Shown: positions 7,145-43,399 of the stretch, piece by piece
Numbering within the stretch: the first letter of the stretch is position 1
Layout: every line of letters begins with the position of its first letter
Source of the DNA: Rubritepida sp.
GTDB lineage: Bacteria > Pseudomonadota > Alphaproteobacteria > Acetobacterales > Acetobacteraceae
Assembly (NCBI GenBank): GCA_028291455.1
Contig: JAQGHY010000117.1
Coordinates: forward strand, 1-47,759
DNA: 47,759 nucleotides
Direction of reading: 5' to 3'
Notes under the pieces: generated by a model
What the model saw: the letters and a program-made list of their open reading frames with translations, nothing else
Told to the model about the DNA's origin: nothing
Database searches by the model: none
Translations under genes and position numbers: made by a program

Positions 7145-10100
7145 AGCTCTTTTCCATCGCGCCCGGCCTGCCGTTCCTGCCCGCTCTCGCACGCGGGGCA
7201 CTGGCGCGGCTGGGCACCGGGGAGCGGCTTGCCGCGGCGACGATCCTGCTGCCGACGCAGCGCGCCGCCCGCGCCCTGCAGGCCGCCTTCCTGCGCGAGG
7301 CCGATGTCCCGGCCCTGCTGCTGCCGCGCATGCGGGCGCTGGCCGGGCTCTCCACGGAGGATGCGGACGAGCTGGCCCTGCCCGCTTTGCTGCGCCTGCC
7401 GCCGTCGGTGGAAAAGCTGCGGCGCCAGGCGGTGCTGACCGGCTTCGCCATGCGCTGGCCGCGCTCCCGTGGCGGCCCCGCCAGCGCCGAGCACGCCTGG
7501 GCCCTGGGCGACGAACTCGGCAAGCTGCTGGACGAGATCGCGCTGGAGGAGGCCGAGCCGCTGCCGGACGACCCGGAACTGCTTGGACATCTGTGGCTTG
7601 AGCGGCTGGAGGCCTTGGCGCCCGAGGCGCTGGCCGTGCATTGGCAGATTACCACGACCTTTCTTCGCGCGGTCGTCGAGGAATGGCAGGGCTGGCTGGC
7701 GGAACAGGGCCTGCTCGATATCGGCGTCCGGCGCGTGCTGGCCCTGCGCGCCCAGCGCCAGGCCTGGGAGGATGCGCCGCCGGGCGATGCCGTGATCGCG
7801 GCCGGTATCGGCCTGGGCGGCACGGTGCCCGCCGCGGCCGACCTGCTCCGCGTGATCGCGACAGGGCTCGAACACGGTGCCGTCGTGCTGCCAGGCGAGG
7901 ATGCGGCGACGGCCGCCCTGCCCTTCCATGCGCTGGAGCAAGCGCCCACGCATCCCTTCGCCGGCCAGCGCGCCATGCTCCGCCGCATGGGCGCAACCAT
8001 GGCCGATGCGACGCCCTGGGCGGAGCCGATATCCGGCGAACGCGCGGCGCTGCTCGGCACTGCGCTTCTGCCGGCCGGGCAGCTCGCGCCCTGGCAATCG
8101 CGCGATCCCGCGCGATGGGGCGCTGCGCTGGCGGGTGTCTCGCGCATCGAGGCGACGGACAGTCAGCATGAGGCGGCGTCGATCGCGCTGGTGCTGCGCG
8201 GAGCGCTGGAAAGGCCGGGCGCGAGGGCCGCGCTGGTGACGCCGGATCGCGATCTCGCGCGCCGTGTCGCGGCCGAACTGCCCCGCCACGGCATCCTCGC
8301 CGACGACAGCGCAGGGCAGCCGCTATCTGACACGCCGCCGGGCGCGTTCCTCCGGCTGATCGCGCATCTCGCCGCGGGGGATTGCGGGCCGGTGCCGCTG
8401 CTCTCGGTGCTGAAGCACCCGCTCTGCGCAGCGGGCTGGGAACGCGGCGACCTGTTGGCCGCGACGCAGCTTCTGGAACGCGCGGCCCTGCGCGGGCCAT
8501 CGCCCAATGTGGGGGTGGCGGGGCTGCGATCGGTGCTCGCGGGGGTGCGCCCTGCGGAGACGGCGGCGCGGATCGAGGCGCTGCTGGTCGCGCTGGAAGC
8601 CGCGCTCGGCCCCTTCCACACCCTGCCGCGCAGCCCGGTCCGGCGGCCCGCCGATCTCCTCGCCGAACACCTCGCCGCCGCCGAGGCGCTGGCCACCACG
8701 CCCGCTCTGCCCGGTGGATTGCGCCTCTATGCCCAGGCCGAGGGCGAGGCGCTGGCGCGGCATCTGGCCGACCTCGCCCCCGCCATGGCCGAGCTGCCAC
8801 CACTCTCGCCGGCCGAATGGCCCGCGCTCTTCGAGGCAGCGCTGGCGCAGGGCACCACGCGCGCGCCGCGTATTTCGCGCGGGCGGCCGGATGCGGCGCA
8901 TCCGCAGGTGGAAATCCTCGGCCTGCTGGAGGCCCGGCTGCTGGATTTCGATTGTGTCGTGCTGGGTGCGCTGGACGAGACCATCTGGCCCCAGGCCAGC
9001 GACCCCGGCCCCTGGATGAGCCGCCCGATGCGGCGCGAATTCGGCCTGCCCTCGCCGGAGCTGCGCATCGGCCGCGTCGCGGCGGATTTCCTGATGACCT
9101 GCGCCTCCTCGCGTGAGGCCGTGCTGTCGCGCGCGGCCAGGCGCGGCGGCAGCCCGAGCGTGCCGGCGCGCTGGCTCACCCGCCTCGACACCTTCCTGGC
9201 GGGGCAGGAGCGCGGGCTCGCCGTGGCCAAGAATCCCTGCGCCGATTGGGCGCCGCTGCTCGACTTGCCGAACCGGGTGCAGCCCTGCGGCCGGCCCGCG
9301 CCCAATCCGCCCGCGGAAGCAAGGCCGGACCGGCTGACGGTCAGCGACGTCGCGACCCTCCTGGCCGATCCTTATGCCTTCCATGCGAAGCGGATTCTCC
9401 GCCTGTCTCCGCTCGATCCGCTGGAGCAGGAGCCCGGCGCGGCGGATTACGGCAACCTGATCCATGCCGCGATCCATCGCTTCCTCACCACCCTGCCGCG
9501 CCCCTGGCCGGGCGAGGAGGCGGCGGAGGCCATCTGGGAAACCGCGGCTCAAAAAGCGCTGGACGAGGCGGCGCTGCGCCCCGCCATCGCGGCACTCTGG
9601 ACGACGCGGCTGGCGCGCGTGGGCGCCTTCATCCGCGGGATCGAGGCGCGTCAGCAGCCGGGGCTGCTGGCGAGTTGGGCCGAACTGCGCGCGAAGCTCA
9701 CCGTGAAGCGGCCACGCGGCACGATCACATTGGAGGCCCGGGCCGACCGGGTGGATCGCCTGGCCGACGGCACGCTGCGCATCCTCGACTACAAATCCGG
9801 AACCGTGCCCTCGGAGAAGCAGGTGGTCGCCGGCACCGCGCCGCAGCTGCCGCTGGAAGCGCTGATGGCCGAGCGTGGCGCCTTCGAGGGCGTGACGCCC
9901 GCAGCGGTCACCTCGCTCGAATACTGGCGCCTGACGGGCGCCACCGAGCCCGGCGAAATCACCGTGCTGGGGCTAGAAGTCGCCGAGGCCATCCTGGCTG
10001 CCGAGGATGCCCTGAACCGGCTGGCGGATGGCTTTCTGCTGGGACACCGGCCCTTCCTCGCCAACCCGCATCCGGCGCGGCGGGCCTCGCCGGACTACCG

Positions 10101-10146
10101 GCATCTGGCACGGACGGCCGAATGGTCGGCGGAGGGCGAGGAATGA
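7141..10146 (+). CDS. addB: double-strand break repair protein AddB
   Basis: This protein of about 1,001 residues is the B subunit of the AddAB helicase-nuclease, which resects double-strand ends for RecA-dependent repair. The N-terminal inactive-helicase part includes ILLPTQRAARALQAAFL, in which the Walker A motif is not conserved, as in alphaproteobacterial AddB. FDCVVLGALDETIWPQ occurs mid-protein. The C terminus has a PD-(D/E)XK nuclease motif in RADRVDRLADGTLRILDYKSG. The start is GTG at 7141, inside the murU stop (GTGA), which gives the family N terminus VKLFSIAPGLPFL. The following addA start overlaps the TGA, so the two subunits are coupled. Confidence 0.95.
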   Translation: MKLFSIAPGLPFLPALARGALARLGTGERLAAATILLPTQRAARALQAAFLREADVPALLLPRMRALAGLSTEDADELALPALLRLPPSVEKLRRQAVLTGFAMRWPRSRGGPASAEHAWALGDELGKLLDEIALEEAEPLPDDPELLGHLWLERLEALAPEALAVHWQITTTFLRAVVEEWQGWLAEQGLLDIGVRRVLALRAQRQAWEDAPPGDAVIAAGIGLGGTVPAAADLLRVIATGLEHGAVVLPGEDAATAALPFHALEQAPTHPFAGQRAMLRRMGATMADATPWAEPISGERAALLGTALLPAGQLAPWQSRDPARWGAALAGVSRIEATDSQHEAASIALVLRGALERPGARAALVTPDRDLARRVAAELPRHGILADDSAGQPLSDTPPGAFLRLIAHLAAGDCGPVPLLSVLKHPLCAAGWERGDLLAATQLLERAALRGPSPNVGVAGLRSVLAGVRPAETAARIEALLVALEAALGPFHTLPRSPVRRPADLLAEHLAAAEALATTPALPGGLRLYAQAEGEALARHLADLAPAMAELPPLSPAEWPALFEAALAQGTTRAPRISRGRPDAAHPQVEILGLLEARLLDFDCVVLGALDETIWPQASDPGPWMSRPMRREFGLPSPELRIGRVAADFLMTCASSREAVLSRAARRGGSPSVPARWLTRLDTFLAGQERGLAVAKNPCADWAPLLDLPNRVQPCGRPAPNPPAEARPDRLTVSDVATLLADPYAFHAKRILRLSPLDPLEQEPGAADYGNLIHAAIHRFLTTLPRPWPGEEAAEAIWETAAQKALDEAALRPAIAALWTTRLARVGAFIRGIEARQQPGLLASWAELRAKLTVKRPRGTITLEARADRVDRLADGTLRILDYKSGTVPSEKQVVAGTAPQLPLEALMAERGAFEGVTPAAVTSLEYWRLTGATEPGEITVLGLEVAEAILAAEDALNRLADGFLLGHRPFLANPHPARRASPDYRHLARTAEWSAEGEE

Positions 10147-35404: not shown

Positions 35405-35408
<4 letters not shown>
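33348..35408 (-). CDS. flhA: flagellar type III export gate protein FlhA
   Basis: The 686-residue inner-membrane export-gate component has an N-terminal half with about eight helices, including [21 protein letters not shown], the cytoplasmic loop segment [31 protein letters not shown], and [29 protein letters not shown]. The C-terminal cytoplasmic domain (from about residue 345) docks export chaperones. The length is normal. The start is GTG at 35408, inside the flbD stop (GTGA). No flhB, fliP, fliQ or fliR is in the window. Confidence 0.96.
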
Positions 35409-36774
<1,366 letters not shown>

Positions 36775-36778
<4 letters not shown>

Positions 36779-37122: not shown

Positions 37123-38127
37123 TCAATCGACAAGCTGGTCATCCTTGCCCTCCGAGAGCTGAATCTGGCCTTGGGACGCGAGGTCCTTGGCGGCGGCGAC
37201 GATCGTCGCCTGGGCTTCGTCGACATCCTTGAGCCGCACGGGGCCCAGGGATGCGATGTCGTCGCGCAGCAGCTTGGCCGCGCGTTCGGTCATGTTGCGG
37301 AAGAAGAGCTCGCGCATCTCCTCGGCGGCGCCCTTGAGCGCGAGGGTCAACCGCTCCTTCTCGACGCTGCGGAGCAGGACCTGCAGCCCCTGCGCATCGA
37401 GGCGGCGGAGGTCGTCGAAGGTGAACATCAGCGCGCGGATGCGTTCGGCCGCCTCGCTGTTGCGCTCCTCCAGGGCGGCCATGATGCGGCCCTCGGCCTG
37501 GCGATCGAGGCCGTTGAAGATTTCCGCCATCATCTCGTGCGCATCGCGGCGCGTGGAGCGGGCGAGGTTCGACATGAACTCCATCTTGAGAGTGCGCTCG
37601 ACGCCTTCCAGCGCCTCCTTCTGCACGTTCTCCATGCGGAGCATCCGCATCACGACCTCCATCGCGAAGCCTTCCGGCAGGATGGAGAGCACGCGTGCCG
37701 CATGGTCTGGCTTCACCTTGGTGAGCACGACGGCGACGGTCTGCGGGTATTCGTTCTTCAGGTAGTTCGCGAGCACCGTCTCGTTCACATTGCCGAGCTT
37801 GTCCCACATCGTTCGGCCGGCCGGGCCGCGGATTTCCTCCATGATCTGCGCGACGCGCTCTCGCGGCAGGGTCTTGAGCAGCAGCCGCTCCGTGCTCTCG
37901 AAGGAGCCGACCAGATGCCCCGCCTTGCCGAGATGCGTGGCGAATTCGTCGCAGATATCCTCCACGGCTTGCGCCGAGATCGTACCCAGCTGCGACATGG
38001 CGGCGGAGAGGTCGCGGATCTCGTCCTCATGCATGCGGGCGAAGAGGCGCGCGGCGTGCTCCTCGCCCAGCGCCAGCATCAGTACCGCCGCCTTCTGCGG
38101 CCCGCGCATGGTCCGGGTGACGCTCAT
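37123..38127 (-). CDS. fliG: flagellar motor switch protein FliG
   Basis: The 334-residue rotor protein links the MS ring to the stator. The N-terminal part binds FliF, and the middle has [27 protein letters not shown] (the EHPQT-type motif, here EYPQT). The C-terminal torque domain has [34 protein letters not shown] and [25 protein letters not shown] with the conserved charged residues. Its ATG overlaps the fliF stop (ATGA). Length and layout are normal. Confidence 0.96.
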
Positions 38128-39836
38128 TCCTCATCCTCCGGTGTCAGCCAGCGGCGAACGACGAGCAGCGCCTGGTCGGGACTTTCATCGACCAGCGCCG
38201 TGATGCGGGCGATGGAAGAGGCGCGCATCCGGCCCTGCACATGTGCCAGGTGGATCATGCGGTCGCTCTCCGTCTCGCCCTCCGCGCCAGGCAGCAGCTC
38301 GTTGACGTCTCCGGCCAAAGCGGCCGCGCCGCCGGCGAGGGCAGTCCCTGCCAGCACTGGCGTCGGGTTCAGCGTGAGCGACAGCTTGCGAGCGACCGGC
38401 CGCGCGACCAGCAGCAGCGTCAGCAGGATCAACACGCCGATGACGCCGGTTTCCAGTAGCCGCGCCAGCGTCGCCTGGGTGATGTCGAGTCCGAAGGTTC
38501 CGGTGTCCCGCTGCACGGTTTCGGGCTCGGCGAAGCGCATGGAGACGACCTCCACACGGTCGCCGCGCTGCTCGTTGAAGCCGACCGCGTTGCGCACGAG
38601 GCTGACGATGCGCGCCAGCTCGTCGGCCGTGCGCTCCCGTACATTGGGCGGGCCCTCGGCCTGGACTTCGGCCACGCCGTCCACCAGGACGGCGACGGTC
38701 AGGCGGCGGATGACCGGGTGCTCGCGCAGCACATTGCGCGTGGTCCGGCCGATCTCGAAATTCGTGGTCTCTTCCTGCTTGCTTTCCTGGTTGCCGCCGC
38801 CGCTCGCCGGCGGTTCGGCGCCGGGCAGGTTGTTCGCCACGCTGACGTTCGCATTATCCTGCGTGCGGTTCGTCTCGGTCGTGGACTGCGTGCTGCGCGG
38901 CACCTGATTGTCCGGATCGAAGCGCTCCTCGCGGGTTTCCACGCGATCGAAGTCCATCTCGAGCGAGACCTCCGTCCGGACGCGGCCCGGGCCCAGCACC
39001 CGTTCCAGCATTTCGTCCACATTGCGGGCGAGACGCGCCTCCTGGCCGCGCCGCAGCTCGTCCTGGGTTTGCGCGCCGGCGGGGCCGGAGAGCGCCTGCC
39101 CGCCACGCGCCAGCAGCTCACCGCGGCTATCCACGATGGAGACATTCTGCGGGCGCAGGCCGGGCACCGCCGCCACGACCAGATGCAGCACCGCCTGCAC
39201 GCCCTCGCGATCGAGCCGTTGCACCCCTTGCATGGTCAGCAGCACGCTGGCCTGGGCTTCGGCACGCTCGCGGGAGAAAGCCTCGCGGCGGGGTAGGACG
39301 AGGTGAACGCGCGCGGCGCGGACGCCCTGCAAGGCGCGGATGCTGCGGGCCAGCTCGCCTTCCATCGCCCGCAGGCGGTTCATTTCCTGCTGGAAGGGCG
39401 TGGTGGTCAGGCTCTCACCGCGATCGAACAGCTCATTGCCGATCGAGCCGCCGGAGGGCAAGCCTTCGCGCGCCAGGGAGAGACGCAGGCGCGGCACATC
39501 CTCAGCCGGGACCAGCACCTGCGTGCCGTTGGAGGCGAGGCGGTAGGGCACCCGCTGGCGCTCCAGCGCCGCGACGACCGAGCCGGCGTCGCGGGCTTCC
39601 AGGTCGCCGTAGAGCAGGCCCATGGGCGGCGTTCCCGCGCGCAGCACCAGGAAGGCGATCAGCCCAAGCACGCCCAGCCCGACGCCGCCGAGGGCCAGGA
39701 GCCGCACGCGCCCGAGCGCGCGAAGCTGCCCGATCAGATCCTGCACAGCATCCCCGGAGCCAGGCTGCGTGGCATCGGGTGGCGTGAAACGCTGCGCGCT
39801 CGGCAACGGGACATCCGAAGTTCTCCAGAGGCACAT
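38124..39836 (-). CDS. fliF: flagellar MS-ring protein FliF
   Basis: FliF forms the membrane ring on which the flagellum assembles. The 570-residue frame has a first membrane helix (about residues 47-66, [20 protein letters not shown]), the ring-building motif domains with [20 protein letters not shown] and [19 protein letters not shown], a second helix ([22 protein letters not shown]) and a C-terminal FliG-binding tail ending [13 protein letters not shown]. The start is uncertain. A GTG at 39746 would give the family-like N terminus [17 protein letters not shown] (540 residues) and would fit a sigma-54-like site overlapping the ATG at 39836. It begins a seven-gene coupled row. Confidence 0.93.
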
Positions 39837-39845: not shown

Positions 39846-39901
39846 TGGGCAGAACTTGCCGCATGACCAGTTTCCGGATGGTTAACGGAACCGGGGAAGG
39901 A

Positions 39902-40579: not shown

Positions 40580-41839
40580 TCAGATGTTGAGGTCGAGCAG
40601 GCTGCGCATGACGCGCGGGGGCGGGGCTTCGGCCACCGGCATCCGGCTGGTGCCGCCGGAATGGCCGCCGCGCCGGTCATCGCCGCGCGCACTGTCGTGC
40701 TGCCCGGGGCGGGCATCGCCCCCATGGGTTTCGAGCGAGAAGTCGATCCCGCCCGCATCCACTCGCAACCCGGCCTCGGCCAGGTTGCGGTCGAGTTCGT
40801 GGCGGTCGCGCTGGAGCAAGGCGAGGGTTTCCGGCCGCTCCGCCGTCACGCGGACGCTGTGGCTGTCGCCCTCTCGCTGTACGCGGATCTGGACACGCCC
40901 CAGTTCGGGCGGTTCGAGCGAGAGATCGAAGCCGTTGGACGGCCCCGGCGTGAAGGCGAGCGCGATGGCGACGGACGCGACCTGCCGCGCGGGAGGTGGC
41001 GGCGGGCTGGGGCTTGCGGAGGCCAGCGGCGAGGCTTCGGCCAAGACGGGACGCGCTGCCGCGCCCTGATAGGCGGCGATCTCTGCCGTGGGCGCGCCCA
41101 GCGCTTCGGCCTGCCATAGTGCGGAGGTGAGCGAAGGTGCGGTGCGCTGGGGCGCTGGAATGGCGACGGCAGGCACTTCCGGAAGCTCCGGCACCGGCGC
41201 AGCCGAGGATTCGGACATGGTCTCCTCCTTGACCCGCGAAGCGAGCGGCCGCGCTGCTTGCGGCGCCGGTGCGGACGTGGCCTGCGCAATCGGCTCGGCG
41301 GGCGTCGCGGCTGCGGAGACGATGACCGGCATCGCGATCACGGGAATCGTGTCGGGATCGGTGGCCTCCTCGTCCGATTCCGGTGGTGCGGCTGCAGGCA
41401 TGCGCGGAGGCATCGGCGGGGCGGAAGCCGGCACAGGAATCCCGGTCGGCAAGGGCAGCAGCTGCGTAGTCTCCGCCGGCTTCAGCTCCGGCGGGATGGG
41501 CAACTGATCCTCTTCGGCAGGCTCCGGACCGCGGGTCGCCTCATCGAGCTCCGGAATGACGTCCGCGACAGGCAGTTCAACGAGCGGCACCGGCATTACC
41601 GCCGCCTCCTCGATCGGAACCGGTATCGGCGCCGCGATCGTGATCTCCGGCATCTGGGCGGATGCAGCAGCCACCACCACAGTGGAAGGTGCCACGGGAG
41701 CCGCCGCCGTCGAAGCATCGCCGGCTGCCAGGCTGCGCGTCAGCGCCTCGGCGAAACCCCCCTCGCCCTCCGCGCATGGAGCAGCGCCAGCGGGAGCAAT
41801 CGGCGGCGACGGCGCTCCTATCGGTAAGGCGGCATCCAT
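40580..41839 (-). CDS. fliK: flagellar hook-length control protein FliK
   Basis: The 419-residue protein has a long, low-complexity Ala/Pro-rich N-terminal two thirds, as expected of the ruler part. The compact C-terminal hook-length domain reads SNGFDLSLEPPELGRVQIRVQREGD ... RVTAERPETLALLQRDRHELDRNLAEAGLRV. FliK measures the hook and switches the export gate (via FlhB) to late substrates. GAGGA eight bases before the ATG at 41839 fixes the start; a longer in-frame reading to 41992 has no support and would cross the candidate promoter. It is divergent from flgE. Confidence 0.88.
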   Translation of the reverse strand: MDAALPIGAPSPPIAPAGAAPCAEGEGGFAEALTRSLAAGDASTAAAPVAPSTVVVAAASAQMPEITIAAPIPVPIEEAAVMPVPLVELPVADVIPELDEATRGPEPAEEDQLPIPPELKPAETTQLLPLPTGIPVPASAPPMPPRMPAAAPPESDEEATDPDTIPVIAMPVIVSAAATPAEPIAQATSAPAPQAARPLASRVKEETMSESSAAPVPELPEVPAVAIPAPQRTAPSLTSALWQAEALGAPTAEIAAYQGAAARPVLAEASPLASASPSPPPPPARQVASVAIALAFTPGPSNGFDLSLEPPELGRVQIRVQREGDSHSVRVTAERPETLALLQRDRHELDRNLAEAGLRVDAGGIDFSLETHGGDARPGQHDSARGDDRRGGHSGGTSRMPVAEAPPPRVMRSLLDLNI

Positions 41840-41910
41840 GGCTGGGATCCTCGCGGCGGATGGCCCGGTTGACGCCGGGGGCGGACCCGATGCCCACCGC
41901 AGGCCGCTTC

Positions 41911-41925
41911 GCAAAGCACGGGCCG
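41911..41925 (-). promoter_or_regulatory. sigma-54 (-24/-12) promoter candidate for fliK-flgD
   Basis: Minus strand CGGCCCGTGCTTTGC fits TGGCACG-N4-TTGC at 9 of 11 fixed positions, including the invariant GG and GC and their spacing. It lies 71 bases before the fliK ATG and 17 bases from a direct-repeat array. It faces away from the flgE promoter. Confidence 0.55.
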
Positions 41926-41942
41926 CGGCGTGAAGCCGCCAA

Positions 41943-42005
41943 CCCGGCAAACCGCGTCGGGCAGGCGGCAATATCCGGCCGGCCCCCGGCAATCCTTACC
42001 GGGCA
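41943..42005. repeat. three 21-bp direct repeats between divergent sigma-54 promoters, proposed FlbD enhancer
   Basis: Units start at 41943, 41964 and 41985, each exactly 21 bases apart. Every unit has CGGCAA at positions 3-8. Units 1 and 3 share CCCGGCAA-N7-CGGGCA and 16 of 21 bases; unit 2 has GGCGGCAA-N7-CCGGCC (12 of 21 with unit 1). The 21-bp period, two helix turns, puts equivalent bases on one DNA face. The array sits almost centred between the two promoter candidates, 17 and 15 bases away. Binding by FlbD is inferred from context. Confidence 0.65.
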
Positions 42006-42020
42006 AAGCCGCCAGGATGC

Positions 42021-42035
42021 TGGCACGCATCCTGC
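42021..42035 (+). promoter_or_regulatory. sigma-54 (-24/-12) promoter of flgE
   Basis: TGGCACGCATCCTGC matches the sigma-54 consensus TGGCACG-N4-TTGC at 10 of 11 fixed positions, with perfect GG and GC spacing. It lies 62 bases before the flgE ATG, giving a leader of about 50 bases. Hook-operon control by sigma-54 and FlbD is known in Caulobacter, and flbD is in this cluster. Confidence 0.75.
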
Positions 42036-42097
42036 CTCAGACCCGCTGCAGTCCCGAATGCCTCGGGCGACGATCCATGGCGAAGAGGTCTACCCCC

Positions 42098-43399
42098 ATG
42101 TCTCTTTTCGGTGCGATGAACACGGCGATCTCGGGCCTCAACGCCCAGTCGCGCGCGCTCGGCCATATCTCGGACAATCTGGCGAACAGTCAGAGCACCG
42201 GCTTCAAGCGCATCGACACCAACTTCACCAATCTGGTCACGCAATCCGGCCAGACGATGCATGAGCCGGGTTCGGTGATGGCCCGGCCCGACTATACCAA
42301 TTCTGTGCAGGGCACGGTGGAGCAGAGCGACAATCCGCTCGCCCTGGCCATCGGCGGCCAGGGCTTCTTCAGCGTGGCGCAGTCTCGCGGCACGTCGAAC
42401 GGCCTGCCGGCTTTCGACGAGCGGCAATTCTATACCCGCGCCGGCGATTTCCGGATGGATCGGGACGGCTACCTCGTCAACGGCGCCAACTATTTCCTCC
42501 AGGGCTGGCCGGTGAATTCGGATGGAACGGTCGATCGCACGACGCTCGATCCGGTGCGGGTCAGCCAGCAGGTGTTCAACCCCATCGCCACCTCCACCAT
42601 CGAGATGGCGGCCAATATCCCAGCGCTCGATCCGCCCGCGACGCCGGCCGACGCTAAGAGCTTCAGCACCCAGGTGCAGGTCTACGACCAGCTCGGCACG
42701 CGGCACGCGGTCACGCTGACATTCTCGCAGACGCCGGGCGCCGTGGGTCCGCCGGCAACGCCGGGTGCGGCGCGAAGCTGGCAAATGAGCATCTCGCCCA
42801 ATCCGGTCGGCGGCGCGGTGAGCATCCCCATCACCTTCGGCACCAACGGCACGATCGAAACCCTGGACGGCGTGACCGGCACGGCCAATACCCCGGCTGC
42901 GCTGGACTTCGCGATGGACTTCGGCCTGGGCAACCAGGACATCAAGCTGGACCTCGGCCGCTTCGGCGTGGCGCAGGGCATCACGCAGCAGGCCGGGACG
43001 GATTTCTCGCTTCGGACCCTGCACCAGAACGGCGTCCCGCCCGGCTCCTATTCCGGCCTCGCCATCCGTGAGAACGGCGACATCGCTGTCAATTACGACA
43101 ACGGCGAATCCCGCGTCATCGCGCGCGTGCCGCTCGTCTCCTTCAGCGATGCGGACAAGCTGCAGCGCCTCGACGGCCAGGCCTTCATGCGCACCATCGA
43201 AAGCGGCGAGGCGCAGGTGACGGACTCCGCGACGAACGGCGTCGGCAAGCTGGTGGTGGGCGCGACGGAGGGTTCCAACGTCGATATCGGCACGGAGTTC
43301 ACCAAGCTGATCGTCGCCCAGCGCGCCTATACGGCGAATACCCGCGTCGTCACCACCACCGACGAGATGCTGCAGGAAACCATCAACATGAAGCGGTAG
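42098..43399 (+). CDS. flgE: flagellar hook protein FlgE
   Basis: The 433-residue hook subunit begins MSLFGAMNTAISGLNAQSRALGHISDNLANSQSTGFKRIDTNF, the rod/hook N-terminal signature. It then has LAIGGQGFFSV, FYTRAGDFRMDRDGYLVNGANYFLQGW, and the C-terminal NVDIGTEFTKLIVAQRAYTANTRVVTTTDEMLQETINMKR. It polymerises into the hook under the FlgD cap. GAAGAGG nine bases before the ATG at 42098 selects this start over an in-frame ATG at 42077. It leads flgE-flgK-flgL under a strong sigma-54 promoter match. Confidence 0.96.
   Translation: MSLFGAMNTAISGLNAQSRALGHISDNLANSQSTGFKRIDTNFTNLVTQSGQTMHEPGSVMARPDYTNSVQGTVEQSDNPLALAIGGQGFFSVAQSRGTSNGLPAFDERQFYTRAGDFRMDRDGYLVNGANYFLQGWPVNSDGTVDRTTLDPVRVSQQVFNPIATSTIEMAANIPALDPPATPADAKSFSTQVQVYDQLGTRHAVTLTFSQTPGAVGPPATPGAARSWQMSISPNPVGGAVSIPITFGTNGTIETLDGVTGTANTPAALDFAMDFGLGNQDIKLDLGRFGVAQGITQQAGTDFSLRTLHQNGVPPGSYSGLAIRENGDIAVNYDNGESRVIARVPLVSFSDADKLQRLDGQAFMRTIESGEAQVTDSATNGVGKLVVGATEGSNVDIGTEFTKLIVAQRAYTANTRVVTTTDEMLQETINMKR

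Follow-up and report, generated by a model that had tools for sequence, protein, structure and literature searches.

A probable compact FlbD enhancer shared by the divergent sigma-54 promoters of fliK and flgE in Acetobacteraceae

The gap between the divergent flagellar genes fliK and flgE of Rubritepida sp. (assembly GCA_028291455.1, contig JAQGHY010000117.1) probably acts as a compact FlbD (ftr-type) enhancer that serves both genes, making the region one bidirectional sigma-54 module. The window, meaning the whole stretch of 47,759 nucleotides that was analyzed, contains two outward-facing promoters in this gap, with a series of inverted repeats (dyads) between them. The promoters, the dyads, their symmetry, the phasing of their distances and the set of matching sites are all directly visible in the DNA. 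An earlier note on this stretch had suggested a shared, compact FlbD enhancer, and the phased, compact and symmetric sites between the fliK and flgE promoters agree with that idea, while the definition that it gave of the site had to be replaced.

The gene for hook-length control, fliK, lies on the minus strand (40580..41842; Pfam Flg_hook, 1.1e-15), and the hook protein gene flgE on the plus strand (42098..43399; NCBIfam NF004242, 372 bits versus a cut-off of 365). Further flagellar genes in the window are fliG, flgD, flgK, flgL, and fliF (38124..39836, minus strand; TIGR00206), the true start of which is uncertain, the alignment of most relatives beginning at around residue 21-31. A sigma-54 enhancer-binding protein is encoded by flbD (35405..36778, minus strand; NCBIfam NF050807, E 1.2e-194, 647 bits and below the cut-off of 750). 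Its product carries Sigma54_activat and Fis-type HTH_8 domains (Pfam) and is the presumed ligand of the dyads. The host genome encodes FliX as well as FlbD (FliX 81.8 bits versus a cut-off of 25). In relatives, 12 ORFs divergent from flgE were read and eight of these were scanned; all eight matched Flg_hook (FliK), seven exceeding the gathering score and one falling just below it.

Both of the outward-facing -24/-12 promoters that the earlier note had described were present. The promoter of fliK (CGGCCCGTGCTTTGCG, 41926 to 41911, minus strand) agreed with 9 of 12 consensus positions and that of flgE (TGGCACGCATCCTGCC, 42021-42036, plus strand) with 10 of 12, and we infer transcription starts near 41900 for fliK and near 42047 for flgE. 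No sigma-70 promoters or terminators were found in 41700-42200. Between the two promoters, CGGCAA occurs at 41945, 41966, and 41987, so that the three repeats with an exact 21-bp period reported earlier are confirmed for this 6-mer, and this is the sole 21/21 triple among the 38 CGGCAA and 34 TTGCCG of the window. The longer form that had been proposed, CGGCAA-N7-CGGGCA, fits copies one and three and fails at copy two, the only CGGGCA copies within the gap being those at 41958 and 42000. Likewise, of the margins of 17 and 15 bases claimed on either side of the array, we measured 16 and 15 when the repeats were taken as 41943-42005, such that only the second holds. As a definition of the site, CGGCAA-N7-CGGGCA was rejected, because the gaps of relatives show an inverted repeat, CGGCA-N5-TGCCG. 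What had been noticed was the good left half of each of the three dyads, and CGGGCA is incidental.

These three dyads differ in quality within the window. The fliK-proximal dyad (41945..41959, center 41952) scored 2.2 bits with the family matrix, with a good left half, CGGCA, and a degenerate right half, and its position fits that of the -21 dyad in the 111-bp class of relatives described below. The central dyad (41966..41980, center 41973), at most 1 bp from the midpoint of both promoters, also combines a good left half with a degenerate right one and scored 2.6 bits. Only the third, flgE-proximal dyad (41987..42001, center 41994; CGGCA-ATCCT-TACCG) is near-complete, at 15.8 bits, or 16.6 bits when the matrix came exclusively from other genera. 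Counting with the -24 GG set at -25/-24, the dyad centers fall near -53, -74, and -95 relative to the inferred flgE start, and near -52, -73, and -94 relative to the inferred fliK start.

Conservation of this layout was pursued in the flgE upstream regions of 142 Acetobacteraceae genomes from 56 genera, a promoter on either side being accepted when 9 or more of the 12 consensus positions agreed. The divergent -24/-12 pair was found in 127 of the 142 regions and in 46 of the 56 genera. Seven of the remaining regions had a flgE-side promoter only, six had none, and two were short contig ends, so that the pair was absent from 13 of the 142 family loci without a short contig to explain it. In a small class-level sample of nine upstream regions from outside the family no divergent pair was found, and one region had a candidate flgE-proximal promoter. 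When the 35 distinct gaps of 111 bp were averaged, three CGGCA-N5-TGCCG dyads emerged at -21, 0, and +21 about the promoter midpoint, the central one with two strong halves and the outer ones each with one stronger and one weaker half. Compared with its reverse complement, the column profile of 33 gaps fitted best at the center (r 0.82) and second best at a shift of 21 (r 0.70), the latter being what three repeats predict. Because the family matrix had first been trained on gaps that it then scored, we repeated the scoring with left-out matrices, and the dyad exceeded the 99% dinucleotide-shuffle level in all 64 short gaps, in 54 of the 57 long ones, and in all 15 gaps from the host genus itself.

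As to whether the repeats and their period persist in relatives, the literal CGGCAA triple is hardly kept, while the underlying dyad grid is. Specifically, among 48 regions scanned, a triple evenly spaced within 1 bp was present only in the window (21/21) and in one relative (L002; 21/20), and three others (L031, L037, and L042) had three CGGCAA copies with uneven spacing. Over all gaps, we also noted 23 dyad pairs 14 bp apart, as against 37 at 21 bp.

Promoter-to-promoter distances clustered at intervals of roughly one helical turn (101, 111, and 122 bp), with a second series near 147, 158, 169, 180, 190, 201, and 212 bp. In a list of 157 distinct regions with a pair, for which 8 consensus positions were allowed on the minus strand, the clusters lay at 101, 110-112, 119-124, 136-137, 143-150, 155-161, 164-172, 178-182, 187-191, 199-202, and 211-212 bp, with seven outliers (one of 75 bp and six of 240-285 bp). 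With one distance per genus, picked once at random from those of 95-215 bp, a range that left out six of the 127 pairs, we found R 0.78 against a jitter mean of 0.22 (n=45, p<=0.00025), while the control distance from promoter to flgE ATG was unphased (n=46, R 0.18, p=0.55). With the jitter nulls, p could not fall below 1 in 4001 for these tests and for those of dyad-to-promoter distance, nor below 1 in 10001 for the contrasts between relatives given below. The best spacing period of the pooled distances was 11.4 rather than 10.5 and is no helical repeat; separately, and again with one value per genus, short gaps gave 10.85 (R 0.94, n=17) and long gaps 11.2 (R 0.72, n=28). The short (101, 111, and 122 bp) and long gaps (from about 143 bp) form two series with an apparent offset of about 4 bp. 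Distances from the best dyad to each of the promoters were tightly phased when the gaps were short (R 0.95 and 0.96, period 10.45-10.55 bp) and more loosely when they were long (R 0.74 and 0.76 near 11).

Among nearest relatives by FlgE, the spacing was either equal within 2 bp or, in 32 pairs, different by at least 3 bp. These 32 contrasts, from nearest-neighbor pairs that are partly non-independent, had a best period of 10.6 (R 0.53, p<=0.0004). In size, 28 of them were 10-14, 24, 31-36, or 42-44 bp, and the other four were 5, 50, 60, and 65 bp. Because those of 5, 13, 13, 14, and 14 bp and three of 24 bp fit whole turns badly, we regard the turn-wise rule as a tendency. A parsimony count over a tree of 89 FlgE proteins came to 31 changes of spacing; as these were assigned to preset bins, we rely on the unbinned contrasts.

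The dyad by itself was rejected as a genome-wide marker, occurring at 972 places with at most one mismatch versus 1188 for a reversed control. Together with a -24/-12 promoter pattern, it gave 52 matches in 18 of the 21 host-genus genomes, versus one match for the reversed pattern. A match was missing from G011 and G016, both lacking a FlgE match as well, and from G002, which is incomplete and has FlgE; the strict pattern also misses the site in the window, the right half of which is TACCG. Downstream of all but two (L249 and L256) of the 29 pattern loci fetched lies flgE, flgI, or what we read as the rod gene flgF, so that a -24/-12 promoter precedes several hook or basal-body operons (flgE, flgI, and flgF-like). 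Eight of these 27 were placed through neighboring coordinates, the first long ORF being out of frame, and the Pfam check covered L253 (FlgI) and L260 (FlgE/F/G family). Within the allowed range of 19-49, dyad-promoter distances were 25-28 (21 cases), 36-40 (six), and 48-49 (13), with orthologous loci counted repeatedly.

The observation that CGGCAA recurs before fliF was correct, the 6-mer being part of a full, single strong dyad there (39847..39861, center 39854, 17.2 bits). Across the host genus a dyad of 13.5-19.5 bits was located upstream of fliF at 16 of 17 loci (70-105 bp before codon 30 in 15 of the 16), the miss being a second, divergent copy in G020. The site is thus common to fliF and to the later flgI and flgF-like operons; at fliF it stands alone, whereas the flgI and flgF-like dyads are accompanied by a sigma-54 promoter. 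Lying in a gene run that includes flbD, the fliF dyad suggests feedback by FlbD on that run. Additionally, a dyad with a sigma-54 promoter (G000:C285:9607-9654) was seen beside fliX (9753-10106), pointing away from it, and in five of the six flgI/fliX gaps read in relatives a second dyad was present 43-53 bp off toward fliX. A sigma-54 promoter facing fliX was represented by one weak candidate among the six loci, and TTAA boxes, which we take to be the CtrA core, were absent from the 330 bp around the flgI promoter in the six loci read.

Co-occurrence and the gene set make FlbD the likely binder of the dyads. In a set of 80 relatives, three flagellated family genomes without an FlbD-level match (G029, G042, and G045) were also without the promoter pair and without FliX. 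Exceptions were G024, which has the pair and FliX and yet no FlbD-level match in its assembly of 480 contigs, and G014 and G047, which have the pair and FlbD and yet no FliX match; separately, G011 and G016, with neither a FlgE nor an FlbD-level match, still had a FliX-like match. Genes for other sigma-54 activators belonging to this broad family are present, and the product of one of these could be the ligand instead. We consider such a substitution improbable, given the joint absences in the three flagellated relatives, the dyad-promoter modules at flagellar operons and the dyad at fliF, where Caulobacter FlbD acts. It is far less probable still that the repeats are functionless and owe their likeness to chance in GC-rich DNA. 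When the 94-bp gap was shuffled 5000 times with dinucleotides preserved, 13 shuffles did contain some 6-mer in three equally spaced copies, as did 13 of the 4767 native segments of this length taken from the window at a step of 10, a few of which must include this very site, and the dyad alone is common; the layout, however, recurs in 46 genera, as seen with left-out training and a flat control.

The strongest competitor, albeit an unlikely one, is a pair of abutting but separate enhancers, one for each promoter and with no shared complex. The best dyad is flgE-proximal in 10 of the 35 gaps of the 111-bp class, the window included, and in some long-gap relatives two dyads occupy separate portions of the gap, both of which speak for this reading. 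Against this, the central dyad, about equidistant from both promoters, is the best in 24 of the 35, and 15 of the 35 have one dyad only above 6 bits for two promoters. A looped enhancer is to be weighed as well. The motif WATCAANNNNTTR, which we take to be the IHF consensus, was not above mononucleotide shuffles in the 64 short or the 57 long gaps. Although a passage about genes under FlbD control in Caulobacter names IHF, with references (PMC3096577), this result, together with the mere 18-19 bp between an outer dyad and its promoter in the window, makes a loop that needs an IHF bend in the Caulobacter fashion quite improbable, somewhat more so than a different regulator. With the nearest dyad less than 70 bp from the inferred start and no apparent IHF site, we judge a rigid and phased contact likelier than free looping.

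Under the shared FlbD enhancer that we favor, FlbD dimers would occupy the three dyads, 21 bp or two helical turns apart and all facing the same side of the helix. The three dimers could then form one hexameric activator placed about equally for both promoters, such that both holoenzymes would see near-mirror images of one activator cluster. FliX would let FlbD act after early basal-body assembly, and flgE and fliK would be turned on together. Because the arms would be too short to twist freely, selection would keep dyads and promoters in register, and spacing would tend to shift by whole turns. In this scheme, the assembly of a hexamer, the activation of both genes together, and the signal through FliX are borrowed from Caulobacter work and from general knowledge of such activators. 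More tentatively, and with rather less than even confidence, we propose that one rigid hexamer serves the two opposed promoters in a fixed torsional register, with neither loop nor IHF, that this may account for the turn-wise spacing across the family, and that the promoters may share or compete for the ring.

The closest known arrangement is in Caulobacter crescentus, where the divergent sigma-54 flagellar units flaN and flbG share ftr2 and ftr3 (Mullin and Newton 1993, as cited in PMC3096577). Both systems have divergent sigma-54 flagellar units with common nearby ftr elements, a likeness that rests on arrangement and gene set rather than on a comparison of site sequences, the accessible parts of PMC3930126, PMC3096577, and PMC12421884 giving no Caulobacter ftr consensus. 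However, the title of Mullin and Newton places ftr2 and ftr3 downstream, and PMC3096577 mentions IHF in connection with these genes, whereas here three central dyads lie near-symmetrically about the midpoint and no IHF signal was detected. Caulobacter FlbD represses the early gene fliF through ftr4 and activates later genes (PMC3930126, accessible part), to which the FlbD-type site upstream of fliF, as judged from one conserved dyad, would correspond. The NtrC sites of glnA are located some 90 and 140 bp upstream, 70 bp being given as the least distance, and a system built on two NtrC sites showed dependence on the face of the helix (PMC7408454, accessible part). The present gap resembles that enhancer in placing multiple activator sites ahead of a sigma-54 promoter, and differs from it in that the nearest dyad is near -53 of the inferred start and one array serves two promoters. 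It also departs from distant enhancers of the NtrC type in that the enhancer-promoter distance is phased and not freely variable. Since divergent Caulobacter units already share such sites, the sharing itself is not new; the three-dyad symmetry, the closeness, and the turn-wise spacing look new. The available parts of PMC12421884 and PMC5263251 contained nothing on site sequence or phasing at FlbD promoters, and among the titles and abstract openings of the open-literature matches listed, a set with most subscription papers outside it, no report of a three-dyad module or of turn-wise spacing change was found.

In these bacteria, the hook protein and the control of hook length are tied to one probable switch. 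Enhancers of sigma-54 promoters are textbook examples of distance-tolerant control, and the family-wide turn-wise spacing would provide natural evidence for close-range, torsionally constrained control by sigma-54. The Acetobacteraceae gaps offer dozens of natural spacing variants in which such torsional constraint may be tested.
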